This document shows positions 9,448-16,779 of a stretch of DNA of 42,981 nt, in pieces (the first letter of the stretch is position 1; the number at the start of each line of letters is the position of its first letter). The DNA comes from Myxococcales bacterium (lineage in GTDB: Bacteria; Myxococcota_A; Polyangia; GCA-2747355). The DNA is taken from contig JAGQIK010000010.1 in the NCBI GenBank assembly GCA_020431405.1, positions 1 to 42,981 on the forward strand, written 5' to 3'. Position numbers and translations under genes: made by a program. The notes beneath the pieces were generated by a model. It made no database searches and had not been told where the DNA came from. It saw nothing but the letters and a program-made list of their open reading frames with translations.

Positions 9448-11628
9448 ATGGACGCCGCAGCGCTACAAACTCCCGAGGCACCGCGCATCGAGCTCGGCGC
9501 GCTGTTCGCCGCGCTGGTGCTCTCCGCCGCGGAGCTATGGCTCTTGCGCGATCAGCCCCACGGGCCGCGGCTGGCGCTGCTCGCCGCGTTCGTGCTGCTC
9601 TTCTCGGCGGCGGCGTTGGCGCTGCTGCTACGCCTCGGGCTGGCGGCGACGCGGGCGCTGCGCGCGCGCCCGACGCTGCGTGCGGCGGCGGGCGCGGCGC
9701 TGCTCTCGCCGCTGTGCGTGTGGCTCTCGGTGAAGCTCTTCTCCGGCACGGGCATCTCGCAGCATGCCATCGCCAGCTGGGGCCCCTACGCCAGCAGCGC
9801 CCTGCTCTGCGGCTTCAGCTTCGGCGCGCTGCGACTGCTACCGCGCCTGCGCCAAGCGCTGCTCGCGCGCTCGACGCCCCTTCGCCTCGCGCTGGCGCCG
9901 CTGCCGCTGCTGTTCGCCGCCGGGCTGCTGTGGATCGATCACGTGGTCTACCCGCACCACTATCTCTACCTGCATTGGATGCTGCTGCTCGGCGCGGCGC
10001 TGTCGCTGATCGCGGCCGTGTGGCTGGTGGTGGCTCTGCGCGAGCTCGCCATCTGGCAGTGGGTCGCGCCGCTGCTGCTCGTCGCCAGCGTGCCGGGTTT
10101 CGTGGCGGCCGCCGCCATCGGTCTCGCCACCAACGCCGAGCGACAGGCCCTGATGACCCACACCCTCGGCGCCGGCCGGCTCGTCGCGCTCTATCAGACC
10201 CTGCTCGACCGCGACGGCGACGGACACTCGGTGATATTCGGCGAGCGCGACTGCGACAACGGCAACGCCAACGTGCACCCCTTCGCCGCCGACACGCCCG
10301 GCAACGGGATCGACGAGGACTGCGACGGACACGACGCACGCCCGCGCGCCAGGGCGCCGCGAGCGGTCGACGCCGCGCGCTATCGCCAGCTGCTGTCGGC
10401 GTGGCGCGCACGGCCCGGCGTAGCGGCGAAGCTCTCGCGCTACGCCCAGATGAACATCGTGCTGATCGTCATCGACGCGCTGCGCGCCGACCAGCTGCGC
10501 GACACGCGCGCCAACCGCGAGAACCATCCCACGCTGATGAAGCTGGTCAGCCGCAGCGTCCGGTTCGAGCGCGCCTTCTCGAGCGGCGCGGGCACCGACG
10601 TGGGCATGGGCGCGATCTTCACCGGCGCGCTCGAGCCGCTGCGCGGCAAGCACACCTCGTTGCCGCGCGCCCTGCGGCAAGCCGGCATGACGACGCACGG
10701 CATCTTCCAACGCGAGGTCGATCGTTGGGCCGTAAAGAAGCTCGAGCTCGACGGCCTCGAGACACGACACGTGGTGATCAACGACAGCCAGCGGCGCGAC
10801 GTCTCGCTCGAAACCACCAGCGAGGCCGTCAGCGACGCGGCTCTGCGCTTCCTACGCAGCAAGCGCGCCAGCGCGAAGCCGTTCTTTCTGTGGGCGCACT
10901 ACTTCGACGTGCACGAGCACCTCGACGTCTCGCGCGAGGCGCTGCGCGGCGGCAAGTGGCTGGCGCGCGGCATGCAGTTCTATCGTGCACTGCTTGCACA
11001 TACTGACAAGCAAATCAGGCGCCTACTGCGCGCTATCGAGAGGCGCCGCGCGGCGCGCGAGACCATCATCGTGCTGCTCGGCGACCACGGCGAGGGTCTG
11101 CAGCGCGCGTCGGACGGCCGCAAGTCGGATCGCCTGCCTCGCACCCACGGGGCGAGGCTCTACAACGAGCTGACACACGTGCCGCTGGCGGTGTACATCC
11201 CGGGGCTCGCCCCGCGGCGCATCGCGCGCCCGGTGAGCCTCGTCGATGTCTACCCGACATTGCTCGAGCTCGCCGGCGCCGGCGCGAGCGGGGACGCGCG
11301 CCGCAGCTTCGGCGTCAGCCTCGCGCCGTTCCTGCTGCACGGCGACGACCGGCGCGCCCTGGGCGATCTGGCGCGGCTCGCGCGCGCTCTGGTGCTCAAC
11401 GAGTCCGAGCAGCGGGCGATCATCGCCTGGCCGTTCAAGCTCATCGCCTGGTGGGATCGCAGCGTACTGGAGCTCTACGACCTATCGCGCGACTTTGCCG
11501 AGCAACGCGACCTGTCCGACGCGCGCCCGCGGCTGGCTAGGCGTCTGATGGCGCGGCTGGCGCGTCTGTCCCTGCACCGGATCCGCCGCGGGGGTGAGCC
11601 GCGGAAGGTGCCTTCGAAGGCGCGATAG
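9448..11628 (+). CDS. Membrane sulfatase/phosphoglycerol-transferase-family hydrolase with an embedded MopE-like metal-binding motif
   Basis: A 726-aa protein. About five to seven hydrophobic helices occupy residues 20-235. Then comes a D-rich insert (about 254-294: DRDGDG, ERDCDNGN, GNGIDEDCDGHD) with the layout of the MopE-type putative metal-binding motif, which normally sits in exported myxobacterial proteins. An alkaline-phosphatase-superfamily domain fills 335 to about 710: metal Asp D343 in IVLIVIDALRADQL, predicted nucleophile T383 in GAGTDVGMGAIFTG, and LLGDHGEGL with D546/H547. The Cys/Ser-x-Pro-x-Arg signature for formylglycine is absent, so it is more like LtaS-type phosphoglycerol transferases than a true sulfatase. 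The catalytic domain should face the periplasm. The substrate is unknown. The last 92 bp overlap the convergent gene at 11537-13114. Confidence 0.82.
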   Translation: MDAAALQTPEAPRIELGALFAALVLSAAELWLLRDQPHGPRLALLAAFVLLFSAAALALLLRLGLAATRALRARPTLRAAAGAALLSPLCVWLSVKLFSGTGISQHAIASWGPYASSALLCGFSFGALRLLPRLRQALLARSTPLRLALAPLPLLFAAGLLWIDHVVYPHHYLYLHWMLLLGAALSLIAAVWLVVALRELAIWQWVAPLLLVASVPGFVAAAAIGLATNAERQALMTHTLGAGRLVALYQTLLDRDGDGHSVIFGERDCDNGNANVHPFAADTPGNGIDEDCDGHDARPRARAPRAVDAARYRQLLSAWRARPGVAAKLSRYAQMNIVLIVIDALRADQLRDTRANRENHPTLMKLVSRSVRFERAFSSGAGTDVGMGAIFTGALEPLRGKHTSLPRALRQAGMTTHGIFQREVDRWAVKKLELDGLETRHVVINDSQRRDVSLETTSEAVSDAALRFLRSKRASAKPFFLWAHYFDVHEHLDVSREALRGGKWLARGMQFYRALLAHTDKQIRRLLRAIERRRAARETIIVLLGDHGEGLQRASDGRKSDRLPRTHGARLYNELTHVPLAVYIPGLAPRRIARPVSLVDVYPTLLELAGAGASGDARRSFGVSLAPFLLHGDDRRALGDLARLARALVLNESEQRAIIAWPFKLIAWWDRSVLELYDLSRDFAEQRDLSDARPRLARRLMARLARLSLHRIRRGGEPRKVPSKAR

Positions 11629-13114
11629 GGACACGCCGCGCGAAGACGTTGGCCACGATCAGCGCCGGCACCAGCAAGCCAAGCAGCGGCGCACCGAGCT
11701 CGCAGACCACCGAGGCACAAGCCGTGATCGTCGCCTCGACGGGCGGGCGAAAAAGCGGCCAGCCGCTCGCGCCGAGCAGGACTGCGGCCCCTGCCGCCAG
11801 GCTCGCGGCGACCAGCGCCCCCGCCAACAGGTGTCCCACGTGGCGCGCCAGCAGCCACAGCTGCAGCAGCAGCGCGACCAAGACAACGTACAGCATCGGG
11901 CGCAGACCGGCGTGAAACGTCGGGTAGACCTCGCTGTGCGAGAGCGACGGAAGCCCGCCGCGGCGCACGGCGTAGGCGATCAAGATCGCAGCCACGCCCC
12001 AGGGCAGCGCCAGCAGCGCGCCGACGACGCCACCCCCACGACGCCAGGCGAGCACCACCAGCGCCACCAGCACGAGCAGCGCGGCGAAGGCGCCGGCGCG
12101 CGCCCACAGCGGTGGCCCGACGGCCGGCGGTGCTGGTGGTGTCGCGTCGCTCAGCACTTTGGCCAACGGACGCCCTTGCGAGCGCGCGAGCGGCGCGAGC
12201 CCGAGCTGGTCGCTGATCAAGCGGTTGACGTCGACCATGTTGCCGCGCCCGCGCGCGCCCGCGCTCAGCCCCGGCCCCGCCGCGCAGCAGCGCACGTGGC
12301 GGATCGACGGCTCGTCACCGCCGTGACCGCCGCCCGGCAGGTGACCGTGATCGGAGAGCACCAGCAACGTCTCGCCGGCGCCCCGCGCCTTGGACAGCGC
12401 CGCCACCAGCGCGTCGCCACGCTCGGCCTGGCGCGCGTAGGCCGGCGAGGACGACCCCACACGGTGGCCCACCGCGTCGATGGCGAGCAGATGCACGAAG
12501 ACCAGCGCAGCGCTCGAGCCCACGGCGGCGAGCGAGTCTCGCAGCATCACGCGCGGCGCGATGGGCGGCTCTCCTCGCGGAGGGCACTGCAGGTCGACGA
12601 ACCCGAACGAGCCGGCGATCTCGCAGTGCGACTCGGCGATGGCGATGGCCTTGGCCGCCGGTCCCGCGTCGGAAGCCGCCGCACGAGACGCGGCAGCGGC
12701 GAGCGCCGCCGGGATGGTGGGCGCGCGCGCCTGCACGCGGCGCGTGACGAACAACAGCCCCGACTGCGCCTGCCACAGGCCCGTCCACAGCGCGTGCTGC
12801 ACGGGCAGCGAGACGGTGGGAAAGCCGACGTCGATGTCGAGGCTCACGCCGGCAGCGCACAGCGCGCGCAGCGCCGGCAGCTTGTCGGCCTGCGCGCGGC
12901 CGAGGCCATCGAGCAGCAGCACGCGCACTTTGGCCAAGGGTCTCGCGCTGACAGGGCGCGCGCGCGGCGCCGGCAAGCGTGGTTCACCCGGCGAGAGCAC
13001 GGCGCGCAGCAGCGAGCGCCGCGAACGAGAGAGCGCGAGGCCGAGCGCGGCGACCAGCACCAGCGCCGCCACGAGCCAGGCCACGCCCTGCAGGCGCGCG
13101 GGCGAGACCTTCAT
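11537..13114 (-). CDS. Membrane type I phosphodiesterase/alkaline-phosphatase superfamily protein
   Basis: A 525-aa protein starting at ATG 13114, three bases beyond the TGA of the upstream FolB/flavoprotein gene (TGACGATG), so the two are almost certainly translated from one message. One N-terminal helix (about 10-30) leads into an alkaline-phosphatase-superfamily domain: metal Asp D69 in VRVLLLDGLG, nucleophile T100 in GFPTVSLPVQHALWTG, a LLAIDAVGHRVG metal motif, and LLVLSDHGHLPGGGHGG. This order is that of type I phosphodiesterases/nucleotide pyrophosphatases. The C-terminal 200 residues hold about five hydrophobic helices and a Pro/Ala/Gly-rich tail. The catalytic part should be periplasmic. 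It is the third gene of the kinase operon and overlaps the 3' end of the convergent hydrolase by 92 bp. The substrate is unknown. Confidence 0.82.
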   Translation of the reverse strand: MKVSPARLQGVAWLVAALVLVAALGLALSRSRRSLLRAVLSPGEPRLPAPRARPVSARPLAKVRVLLLDGLGRAQADKLPALRALCAAGVSLDIDVGFPTVSLPVQHALWTGLWQAQSGLLFVTRRVQARAPTIPAALAAAASRAAASDAGPAAKAIAIAESHCEIAGSFGFVDLQCPPRGEPPIAPRVMLRDSLAAVGSSAALVFVHLLAIDAVGHRVGSSSPAYARQAERGDALVAALSKARGAGETLLVLSDHGHLPGGGHGGDEPSIRHVRCCAAGPGLSAGARGRGNMVDVNRLISDQLGLAPLARSQGRPLAKVLSDATPPAPPAVGPPLWARAGAFAALLVLVALVVLAWRRGGGVVGALLALPWGVAAILIAYAVRRGGLPSLSHSEVYPTFHAGLRPMLYVVLVALLLQLWLLARHVGHLLAGALVAASLAAGAAVLLGASGWPLFRPPVEATITACASVVCELGAPLLGLLVPALIVANVFARRVPIAPSKAPSAAHPRGGSGAGTDAPAAPSDA

Positions 13115-13116
13115 CG

Positions 13117-14457
13117 TCAGTCGTCTCGCCCGCCGCGCGAAGCGGCCTCGAGCAGCGCACACGCGCTGCGCGCCGCGTTGGCGGCGCTGCCCGCCGCCGT
13201 CGCCACCGCGAGACACGCCGGCCCGATGAGGTCGCCCGCGCCGAAGACGCGCACCTGCCCCTCCACGCGACCGGCGCTGTCCACGCGCAGCGCGCCCCTC
13301 TCGTCGCGCCACTCGGCGGGCAGCAGCTCGGCGCGCGGTGACCAGCCGATGCGCACCAGCGCGGCGTCGACCGCCAGGCGCCGGCCATCGTCGAGCTCGA
13401 CGGCCTCGAGCCGCTGCGCGCCGATGAACGCCTTCACGGCGGCGTTCATTTCGCAGCGGATGCGCGGCTCTCCCGCGATCGCCCGCACGAACTGCTCGCG
13501 CGCCGAAAAGCGCGCGCGGCGATGGATCAACGTCACGCGTGCGCCGGCGTCGGCGAGCATCAGCGCGTTCTCGCACGCAGCGTCCCCGCCGCCGACGATC
13601 GCCACGTGCTTCGCGCGCAGCGCCAGCGTGTCCTTCGAGCCGGTGGCCAGCAGACCCTTGCCGCGAAGCTGCCGCTCGCCCGGCACTGCCAGCTCGCGCC
13701 GCGAAAGACCCGTGGCGACGATCAAGGTCTCGCCGCGCAGCGTCGCCTGGCCGACCTTCAGCGCCACGCCGTCGTCGTCAGCCTCGAGCTGCGTGGCGCG
13801 CGCACGCACCAGCCGCACGGCGCCGAGCGGCGCCAGCTGCGCAGCGATGCGGCGCGCGTAACTCGGCCCAGTCTGTGGTGGGCTGCCCGGCAGATCGGGC
13901 ATCGGCTGATAGACCACGTGAAGCTGGCCGCCGAGCGCGCTGCCTTCGTCGACGAGGAGCGCGCTGCGTCCAAGCCGCGCGACCCGCAATGCGGCGTTGA
14001 TACCGGCGGGCCCGCCGCCGAGGATCAGCACCTCGTGCCGTTCGCTGGCTGCCCGCGCCAGCGCCTCCCCTTCGAGCAGCGCCGGCTCGCTGTCGCTCGC
14101 GCGCACACGCCGCAGCGCGACTCCCGCCGCGCGCGCCTCGGCCATACACGTCAGCTTGCCCAGGCGCAGCGAGATCTCGCTGACCAGCGGCAGCGCCTCG
14201 AGCACCGCGTCGGCGATCTCTTCGGCGAGGGTCTCGACCAGCGGGAAGTGACGCCGCGCGATCACATCGCGCGCCACGGCCGCCACGCGCGTGTAGTCGA
14301 CGGTGTCGGCGATGGCCTCGCTCGCCGCCGCGCCGGCGCTGGCGAGCTTGACCTCGATGTCGAGCCGCAGTGGCTGCGCGCGGCCGATCTCGTCGGCGTT
14401 GATGCCGATCTGCGCCGGCAGCACCAGCCCTTCGACGAATACACTGGTCTCGCTCAT
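13117..14457 (-). CDS. Fusion: dihydroneopterin aldolase (FolB) domain + thioredoxin-reductase-like FAD/NAD(P) oxidoreductase
   Basis: A 446-aa protein from ATG 14457 (GAGGGAG ribosome site overlapping the kinase stop). Residues 1-120 are a FolB domain: the residues used in S. aureus FolB catalysis and pterin binding are all present, as E23 (DEIGRAQ), Y55 (DTVDYTRV), E75 (LVETLAEEI) and K101 (LRLGKLTC). FolB cleaves 7,8-dihydroneopterin in folate synthesis. Residues 140-440 are a two-dinucleotide-fold flavoprotein: FAD motif GGGPAG (147-152), NAD(P) motif VGGGDAACENAL, and a late FGAGDLIG FAD loop. The CxxC of thioredoxin reductase, expected just before the second motif, is replaced by LLATGSKD, so it should not reduce thioredoxin and is closer to ferredoxin/flavodoxin-NADP reductases. 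The reading frame is continuous across the junction. Second gene of the operon. Confidence 0.87.
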   Translation of the reverse strand: MSETSVFVEGLVLPAQIGINADEIGRAQPLRLDIEVKLASAGAAASEAIADTVDYTRVAAVARDVIARRHFPLVETLAEEIADAVLEALPLVSEISLRLGKLTCMAEARAAGVALRRVRASDSEPALLEGEALARAASERHEVLILGGGPAGINAALRVARLGRSALLVDEGSALGGQLHVVYQPMPDLPGSPPQTGPSYARRIAAQLAPLGAVRLVRARATQLEADDDGVALKVGQATLRGETLIVATGLSRRELAVPGERQLRGKGLLATGSKDTLALRAKHVAIVGGGDAACENALMLADAGARVTLIHRRARFSAREQFVRAIAGEPRIRCEMNAAVKAFIGAQRLEAVELDDGRRLAVDAALVRIGWSPRAELLPAEWRDERGALRVDSAGRVEGQVRVFGAGDLIGPACLAVATAAGSAANAARSACALLEAASRGGRDD

Positions 14458-14468
14458 GGCGCGCTCCC

Positions 14469-16613
14469 TCACCAGTTGCTGATCAGCGTGGTCTGGCGCG
14501 GCCGGATCAGCACCGAGCGGCGCACCACCTTGCTGCCGTTCTTGAGCACCAGCTTGTGCTCGCCCGCGCTGAGCGTGACCATCAGCGGCGTCGTGCCGCG
14601 CGCGCGCCCGTCGATAGCGACCTTGGCCCACGGGTGCAGGTTGAGGTTGAGATTGCCGAAGCGCAGCGCCAGCCGCGTGACCTGGCCAGGCGCGAGCTTG
14701 ACGCGACGGCGCGCGAAGATGCCCGCCGAGCTGGCGCGACACTCCACGCGATGCGCGCCCGCCGGCAGCTTGGCCACGCGCGGCGTAGCACCGAGCTCTT
14801 TGCCGTCGACCTTGACGGTGCAGCTGTGCGTCGACGTGACGTGGATCTGCGCCGGCAGCGCCACCAGCGTGAAGCGCGCCAGCGACAGCTTGCCGCGCCT
14901 GATCATCACCTCGCGCGACTGCGCGCGATAGCCGCGAGCTCGCACCGAGACCATGCGCCGCCCCACCGCCACGCGCGTCAGCGCCGGCGCCTGACCGATC
15001 ACGTTGTTGTCCACCACCACGCGCGCCCGCACCGGCTGGGTCAGCACACGCAGCTGGCCGGTGACGCGCGGCGTGCTCGCGGCGGACGCGTCGGGCGACG
15101 ACGCGCTGCCGCTACCGCTTCCGCGCGCCACCCCGCCGTCGACGTCGAGCGTCGGGATCTTGCTGCGCACGGCGCGCGCGTCGGCTGCGCCGCGCGACAG
15201 AGCGCCATCGAGCGCGCTGCCGCTGCCGCCCGCCGCGTCGTGCGAACGCAGATACCACATCGCGCCCACGCCGCCACCGACGCCGAGCAGCACCGCGACG
15301 AGCAGCGCCAGGTGGCGCCTTCCGCCAGCGCCGCGGCGTGCATCCGGCGCCTGCATCATGCCCGTGTGCTGCGGCGCCGAGACGAGCTGCCTGAGCGACT
15401 GCCCCTCGATGGGCGGCGGCATGTCGAAGTCTTCGGGCGGCAGCGTCAGCTCGGCGTCGGGGTGGCGCTGGCGCAGATAGAACAGCGTGCGCCGCACCAG
15501 CTCGTCGCCGCGGTCGGTGGTGGCCGCGGCGAGCTGGGGATCGACCTCGTCGCCGAGCAGCTCGTCGGCGCGACGCCCCACGGCGGTGCCGCCCGCCGCG
15601 TCACCGCTGGCGTCGTCTTCGCCGTCGCCGCTCTTGTGCCCGGCGGCGTCGAGCCGAGACGCCGGGAAGAGGTCGGCCATGTAGTCGGCGAGATCGAACG
15701 GGCTGACGGCGAGGTTGTGCAGGCGCATCACGCGCTGCAGCTGCTCGTGGGCGTCGCGCGCCGAGGCTGGGCGCTCGTCGACGTCGGGCGAGAGCATGCG
15801 GTGCGTCAGCTCGACGAGCTCCACCGGCAGGTCGGAGCGCACCAGCGAGACGCGGGCGACCTGCGCGGCGCGCACCGCCTCGAGCGTGGCCATCGGATTC
15901 TGGCGCAAAAACGGCGAGCGCCCGGCGAGCGCCTCGTAGAGCACGATACCGAGCGAGAAGAGGTCCGAGCGTTGGTCGAGATCGCGCCCGTAGGCCTGCT
16001 CGGGCGACATGTAGCTGAGCTTGCCGCGCAGCTCGCCGAAGGTGGTCTGGTGCGATTGCTCGGCGGCGCGCGCCACGCCGAAGTCGGCGACCTTGACCTG
16101 CCCGCCGAACGAGATGAGCACGTTCTGCGGGCTCACGTCACGGTGCACGATGCCGAGCGGATTGCCGCCGAGGCCGCGTTTGGTGTGCGCGTGGTCGAGC
16201 CCCTCGCACACGCAGCACAGCACGTGCAGCAGCAGGTCGAGCGGCATGCGCTCGCTGCGATCGGCGAGACGCAGCAGCACCTCGGAGAGGTTCTCGCCGT
16301 GCACGTACTCCATCGCCATGAAGTAGGTGCCGTCGATGACGCCGTGATCGACGACCTGCACGATGTTGCCGTGCGACAGCTGCGCCGCGATGCGCACTTC
16401 GTCGAGAAAGAGCGTGACCAGCCGCTTGTTGCGCGACAGGTGCGAGAGGATGCGCTTGATCGCCACCAGCCGCGCGATGCCGTGCTCGCCGACCTCGCGC
16501 GCGAGGAAGACCTGCCCCATGCCGCCGGCGCCGAGCGTGTAGAGCAGCTCGTAGGGCCCGAAGCGGCTGCCGCCACTTTCACCGGGCTTGGTGGCGGAGC
16601 TCGCGGATCCCAT
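14469..16613 (-). CDS. Transmembrane Ser/Thr protein kinase with extracytoplasmic PEGA repeats
   Basis: A 714-aa protein from ATG 16613; the in-frame TTG seven codons upstream is less likely. The kinase domain (about 20-300) is complete: glycine loop GAGGMGQV, K53 in VAIK, alphaC E72, catalytic HRDVSPQNV (D159, N164), and DFG at 177. HRDVSPQN is typical of myxobacterial Hanks-type kinases. A cytoplasmic linker of about 130 residues leads to one helix (about 433-455). Outside follow an Ala/Ser-rich stretch and about three PEGA-like repeats (520-714), which usually bind surface or envelope components. It heads an operon with the FolB/flavoprotein fusion and the phosphodiesterase-like protein, with 11 bp to the next start. 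It is divergent from the lipoprotein at 16780. The FHA-containing activator at 20759-22657 is a plausible downstream phosphothreonine reader, by inference. Confidence 0.93.
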   Translation of the reverse strand: MGSASSATKPGESGGSRFGPYELLYTLGAGGMGQVFLAREVGEHGIARLVAIKRILSHLSRNKRLVTLFLDEVRIAAQLSHGNIVQVVDHGVIDGTYFMAMEYVHGENLSEVLLRLADRSERMPLDLLLHVLCCVCEGLDHAHTKRGLGGNPLGIVHRDVSPQNVLISFGGQVKVADFGVARAAEQSHQTTFGELRGKLSYMSPEQAYGRDLDQRSDLFSLGIVLYEALAGRSPFLRQNPMATLEAVRAAQVARVSLVRSDLPVELVELTHRMLSPDVDERPASARDAHEQLQRVMRLHNLAVSPFDLADYMADLFPASRLDAAGHKSGDGEDDASGDAAGGTAVGRRADELLGDEVDPQLAAATTDRGDELVRRTLFYLRQRHPDAELTLPPEDFDMPPPIEGQSLRQLVSAPQHTGMMQAPDARRGAGGRRHLALLVAVLLGVGGGVGAMWYLRSHDAAGGSGSALDGALSRGAADARAVRSKIPTLDVDGGVARGSGSGSASSPDASAASTPRVTGQLRVLTQPVRARVVVDNNVIGQAPALTRVAVGRRMVSVRARGYRAQSREVMIRRGKLSLARFTLVALPAQIHVTSTHSCTVKVDGKELGATPRVAKLPAGAHRVECRASSAGIFARRRVKLAPGQVTRLALRFGNLNLNLHPWAKVAIDGRARGTTPLMVTLSAGEHKLVLKNGSKVVRRSVLIRPRQTTLISNW

Positions 16614-16779
16614 GCGGGGGAATCTTAGCAACAAACGTTGCGCCCACTAAAGCGCCGCGCAAACGCCCGTTGCACCCTGCGCCTGGCGGCACAGTTGCGA
16701 TCTCGGGCATTTGCGGCCCGCGCGGCCCTGGCATGTCGCTCGCATCACCAGCAGCCACAGCAACACATCGGAGGCTCTG

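Follow-up and report, generated by a model that had tools for sequence, protein, structure and literature searches.

The window, a stretch of 42,981 nt from the genome of a Myxococcales bacterium, encodes a protein in which a dihydroneopterin aldolase (FolB) domain is joined to a flavoprotein of the thioredoxin-reductase (TrxR) fold that lacks the CxxC motif of that family. Fusions of these two domains occur in both orders, and neither a recognisable dihydrofolate reductase (DHFR, FolA) nor ThyA was found in the genomes that carry them. The possibility that the flavoprotein domain reduces dihydropterin or dihydrofolate, supplying the tetrahydro level in place of FolA, is one that we judge to be evenly balanced on the evidence set out below.

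The gene and its predicted features are arranged in the window as follows:

13117..14457, minus strand: FolB–TrxR-fold flavoprotein fusion, 446 aa, a single ORF with its ATG at 14457 and its TGA at 13117
14116..14442, minus strand: FolB (dihydroneopterin aldolase) domain, residues 6–114 (Pfam PF02152, TIGR00525)
13192..14034, minus strand: FAD/NAD(P)H oxidoreductase domain of TrxR fold, residues 142–422 (Pfam PF07992, AlphaFold2, Foldseek)
14002..14019, minus strand: FAD-binding motif GGGPAG, residues 147–152 (translated sequence, motif alignment)
13576..13593, minus strand: NAD(P)-binding motif GGGDAA, residues 289–294 (translated sequence, motif alignment)
13630..13653, minus strand: LLATGSKD, residues 269–276, where TrxR enzymes have CxxC (aligned by profile with CxxC-bearing homologues)

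The ATG of the fusion is preceded by GGGAG. Residues 6–114 matched PF02152 (E value 1.1e-21, 77.9 bits against a cut-off of 31.8), and the protein also passed the NCBIfam folB equivalog TIGR00525, narrowly (73.4 bits against a cut-off of 72.15). The preliminary description had left room for the N-terminal domain to fail such profile searches, which it did not. The four key residues of FolB (E23, Y55, E75 and K101) are identical in all seven of the fusions that we identified. By family cut-offs and key residues, the N-terminal half is a member of the FolB family, and it is predicted to have aldolase activity. It resembles other FolB proteins in matching the whole profile, in retaining the four key residues and in being the only FolB of its genome, but differs from them in being fused to a flavoprotein and in the residues that follow K101, which are L or I, any residue and C in the N-terminal-FolB fusions rather than P-G. 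In the window, residues 101–104 (14146–14157) read K101-L-T-C104; the pattern is K101-[LI]-x-C across the N-terminal-FolB fusions and K-P-G in those of reverse order. C104, in the FolB half, and C295 are invariant in the four N-terminal-FolB fusions; a redox role for the two cysteines was considered and set aside, both being missing from the reverse-order fusions.

The C-terminal half matched Pyr_redox_2 (PF07992, residues 142–422, E value 2.2e-36) and, to judge from its motifs, probably binds FAD. It did not reach the NCBIfam cut-off for thioredoxin-disulfide reductase (TIGR01292: 147.6 bits against 343.45, roughly 200 bits short), and no Pfam match to the FolA DHFR domain (PF00186) was returned for the fusion protein. 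Profile alignment revealed no CxxC at the NADPH-domain site in any of the seven fusions, the three relatives from the same order reading LLATAAKG, ILSTASRD and ILATGSKD at this position. The absence of CxxC suggests that the domain presumably performs direct flavin chemistry on another acceptor. Three arginines (R253, R320 and R397) are invariant in all seven fusions, at positions where CxxC enzymes mostly have A, S or T. Pfam, NCBIfam and alignment thus bear out the preliminary reading of one continuous frame with four FolB key residues, both nucleotide motifs and no CxxC.

The order of the window genome was sampled through four genomes representing four genera and two families: that of the window (G000, an 11.2-Mb assembly), G001, G002 and G003. 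Full-length fusions with FolB first are present in G001, G002 and G003, at 45–48 % identity to the window protein and in separate assemblies; the fusion is therefore not a chance product, and the relatives do not carry the two separate genes that had been named beforehand as the sign of an artefact. The fusion is the only FolB in all four genomes, and the separate folB that the preliminary description had proposed looking for in the window genome (G000) was not found there. The architecture search across the phylum, likewise proposed at that stage, took the form of a profile search over 379 genomes followed by domain parsing, and brought the fusions to seven genomes and two domain orders. In G118, G186 and G370, all of family f22 and of the same class as the window, the flavoprotein comes first and FolB second, an arrangement confirmed by Pfam in two of the proteins and by NCBIfam in all three. 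A single-protein query against genome contigs found no relatives; a query built from a four-sequence alignment reached two distant Acidobacteriota (L104 and L105). Both of these encode a CxxC-free flavoprotein with approximately 35 % identity to the flavoprotein domain of the window, and no folate gene was recognised by inspection among their predicted neighbours. A literature search found no description of a fusion between FolB and a flavoprotein of the thioredoxin-reductase type, in keeping with the earlier impression that the architecture had not been described.

We then compared the flavoprotein domains in a maximum-likelihood tree that included the fusion partners and 32 CxxC-bearing reductases. 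The partners of the four N-terminal FolB domains and the three C-terminal FolB domains formed one clade (support 98/88), within which the two fusion subgroups had support of 100/99 and 100/100, and all 32 CxxC-bearing reductases lay beyond a 100/100 branch from the fusion flavoproteins. As the flavoproteins of both orders fall in one clade, a single flavoprotein lineage has become attached to FolB in both orders. The fusion flavoproteins are similar to low-molecular-weight thioredoxin reductases (TIGR01292) in fold and in their FAD and NAD(P) motifs, but are set apart from them by the lack of CxxC, a score below the equivalog cut-off for the window protein, a separate clade and the invariant R253, R320 and R397.

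Among folate-pathway genes, a search for DHFR (PF00186) that was positive in 9 of 14 control genomes returned nothing from the four order genomes or from the three reverse-fusion genomes, and a search for ThyA (PF00303) was likewise negative throughout the seven. By contrast, the three members of f22 that have no fusion (G205, G276 and G358) each possess DHFR and ThyA as adjoining genes; a standalone FolB was present in two of them, and none was found in the third. ThyX, for which the order genomes were searched, was detected in three of the four, the remaining genome (G002) being 67 % complete, and HPPK was detected in all four, indicating that the folate pathway runs in these bacteria and therefore needs a reductase. 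In G002, G003 and G001 (L042, L043 and L044, respectively), the HPPK gene adjoins a gene whose large product is conserved, with similar sequence in all three.

The distribution of DHFR is, taken on its own, weak evidence, because its absence is common in the class: no DHFR was detected in 39 of the 59 genomes sampled from the class, 35 of which lack the fusion, and we therefore rejected the idea that only the fusion lineages are without it. The association between fusion and DHFR absence gave a one-sided Fisher P value of 0.04 within the class (against the other 58 genomes), which are not independent genomes, and the cleaner 3 : 3 split in f22 between fusion and DHFR plus ThyA gave a one-sided P value of 0.05 from a small sample of genomes that are again not independent. 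Since ThyA and DHFR are adjacent in f22, their gain could also reflect one thyA–folA transfer unrelated to the flavoprotein. A flavin reductase fused to FolP was rejected as the answer in the five genomes whose FolP was inspected (G001, G003, G118, G186 and G370), where the FolP frames are 299–318 aa with no N-terminal extension. The FolP match of G000 sits within a longer ORF, and G002 yielded no more than a second, distinct Pterin_bind match.

Some class genomes carry short-chain-type reductases (SDRs) close to FolB. In G037, which lacks DHFR, FolB stands beside a PTPS-like gene and an SDR whose score exceeds the PRK09134 cut-off (L126:3958–5712), and FabG-like SDRs lie near FolB in G009 (without DHFR; L129:169–909) and G017 (with DHFR; L134:3070–3996); no SDR was found near FolB in G013, G021, G033, G029 or G014. 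This weakly suggests that the pairing of FolB with a reductase recurs in the class. Pteridine/dihydrofolate reductases of the FolM/PTR1 type, which are SDRs, might have a role analogous to that of the fusion flavoprotein, but they have a different fold and no flavin.

Standalone CxxC-free flavoproteins were found directly behind a GTP-cyclohydrolase-I-like (FolE-like) gene in families f34 (L073, L075, L077–L081 and L089), f42 (L076) and f30 (L095), and in f34 and f42 a ruvB-like gene, recognised by inspection, lies upstream of the FolE-like gene. This adjacency links the wider CxxC-free family to the pterin pathway. The FolE-like proteins are themselves divergent: relative to E. coli FolE, all nine that were aligned have C[AV]HH in place of CEHH, Q in place of the H of HxC, and GS or GA in place of the SK of GLSK, and none of the five that were scored reached the folE equivalog cut-off, a threshold that E. 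coli FolE exceeds. The FolE-like protein may catalyse a reaction different from that of canonical GTP cyclohydrolase I.

Taken together, we propose that the fusion would act as a bifunctional enzyme of folate synthesis. Its N-terminal half, the only recognisable dihydroneopterin aldolase of the cell, would produce 6-hydroxymethyl-7,8-dihydropterin, while its C-terminal half, which has no dithiol relay, would pass hydride from NAD(P)H via FAD directly to a small substrate. This substrate would most likely be a 7,8-dihydropterin compound, either dihydropteroate or dihydrofolate, or possibly a free dihydropterin, and would be brought to the tetrahydro level, with the flavoprotein standing in for FolA in hosts that are without ThyA and three of which were seen to have ThyX. 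What the substrate is, which way the reaction runs and that FolA is replaced are inferences; the reading was raised because of the combination of a FolB fusion in two orders, pterin-gene adjacency, the lack of CxxC and an essential step for which no other enzyme was identified when PF00186 and a FolP-fused reductase were looked for. More tentatively, and with the balance tilted slightly against so broad a claim, the fusion flavoproteins may represent a new class of TrxR-fold FAD dihydrofolate/dihydropterin reductase, drawn from a flavoprotein family of the pterin pathway and recruited through fusion with FolB in either order, that fills the missing FolA step in bacteria without FolA and ThyA.

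Earlier work speaks for the proposal. Folate makers that use ThyX and lack DHFR need some DHFR activity, the genes for which were unidentified at the time of a 2007 survey, and in Helicobacter pylori, a flavin-dependent dihydropteroate reductase is fused to dihydropteroate synthase (PMC1971073). This FolP-fused enzyme, DHFR2, is similar to the present fusion in combining a flavin reductase with an enzyme of folate synthesis in a host without FolA (PMC1971073). It differs in its partner, which here is FolB, FolP being unfused in the five fusion genomes where it was inspected.

The alternative that survives best, although we think it unlikely, is that the flavoprotein is a pteridine reductase making a free tetrahydropterin cofactor, such as tetrahydroneopterin or tetrahydromonapterin, from the FolB substrate or its epimer and is not a folate DHFR. 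FolB can epimerise dihydroneopterin to dihydromonapterin, and FolM-type reductases are described as pteridine reductases (PMC1971073); FolM is considered to make a tetrahydropterin cofactor in E. coli. In addition, members of the CxxC-free family lie beside FolE-like genes in genomes that keep DHFR (G065, G136, G178 and G197). Such an activity would, however, leave unexplained why DHFR is missing from every fusion genome yet present in the fusion-free members of f22, and would leave the folate pathway of the fusion-bearing cells without a reductase. The coexistence of FolE-linked relatives with DHFR, which counts against the proposed replacement of FolA, suggests that the ancestral activity may have been that of a pteridine reductase, which later became sufficient as a DHFR in the fusion lineages.

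The predicted structure of the domain pair bears on a further alternative. Using AlphaFold2 with an input alignment of 19 sequences, we obtained a confident model of the fusion protein, with a pLDDT of 88.6 and a pTM of 0.74, and Foldseek returned thioredoxin reductases as the nearest solved structures (best 5usx_B and 7p9d, target TM-score 0.86–0.87), with no functional class matching better. The structure prediction that the preliminary description had called for thus yielded a TrxR fold. This outcome, together with the fact that enzymes of TrxR fold without CxxC commonly prove to be reductases of ferredoxin or flavodoxin (PMC10294844), would suit a TrxR-like reductase of ferredoxin, flavodoxin or another small acceptor, fused to FolB for co-expression or assembly and having no pterin substrate. 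TrxR-like ferredoxin/flavodoxin reductases nevertheless carry a C-terminal subdomain with a FAD-stacking residue (PMC10294844), which is absent from the model, where the final helix spans residues 418–441 of 446, and both fusion in two orders and adjacency to FolE-like genes would be unexpected for an unrelated function. The likeness to these reductases that had been drawn at the outset, which extends to a TrxR fold without CxxC but neither to this subdomain nor to a FolB partner, is therefore unsupported, and we consider the alternative improbable. Similarly improbable is a flavin domain whose task is pterin oxidation, or the reduction of oxidised pterins as far as the dihydro level in protection or salvage, with no dihydro-to-tetrahydro step: it would fit the association of the family with the pterin pathway, but it gives no reason to expect DHFR to be missing, and no salvage gene was recognised nearby. 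Of the two roles first suggested, pterin reduction or salvage, reduction is the one favoured by the two-order fusion, the pterin-gene neighbour and the lack of DHFR, while salvage gives way to the missing DHFR step as the likelier function.

In the window, the fusion gene is closely flanked by two genes on the same strand:

14469..16634, minus strand: upstream gene, Ser/Thr protein kinase with a PEGA domain (Pfam: Pkinase, E value 3.7e-40; PEGA, 4.7e-20)
11537..13114, minus strand: downstream gene, ORF of 525 aa with a hydrophobic N-terminus

The kinase–PEGA gene stops 11 bp short of the fusion start and the 525-aa gene begins 2 bp past its stop codon, and this tight spacing suggests that the three may be co-transcribed. 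Neither neighbour has a known part in the function of the fusion. A conserved operon around the fusion was rejected, as the neighbourhood differs among the four order members. A Ser/Thr-kinase-like gene lies directly upstream of the fusion in the window and at all three reverse-order loci (L099, L100 and L101), the kinases differing in architecture (PEGA in the window, a Cys-rich N-terminus at the other three); this placement may be a coincidence in kinase-rich genomes. The differing neighbourhoods would be compatible with an artefact of assembly or a joining of adjacent genes that has no functional effect, but occurrence in seven genomes and two orders, with FolB catalytic residues and nucleotide motifs retained, makes this highly improbable, conservation having already largely ruled it out.

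Returning to the proposed replacement of FolA, the fusion provides a concrete and clonable candidate for the supply of tetrahydrofolate in bacteria without a recognisable DHFR. Family f22 offers a natural comparison, with three genomes that have the fusion and neither DHFR nor ThyA set against three that have both and no fusion. The folate pathway is a major drug target; if the proposed function is true, the fusion would add a new class of reductase to this pathway and would represent the re-use of a flavoprotein fold without dithiol chemistry.
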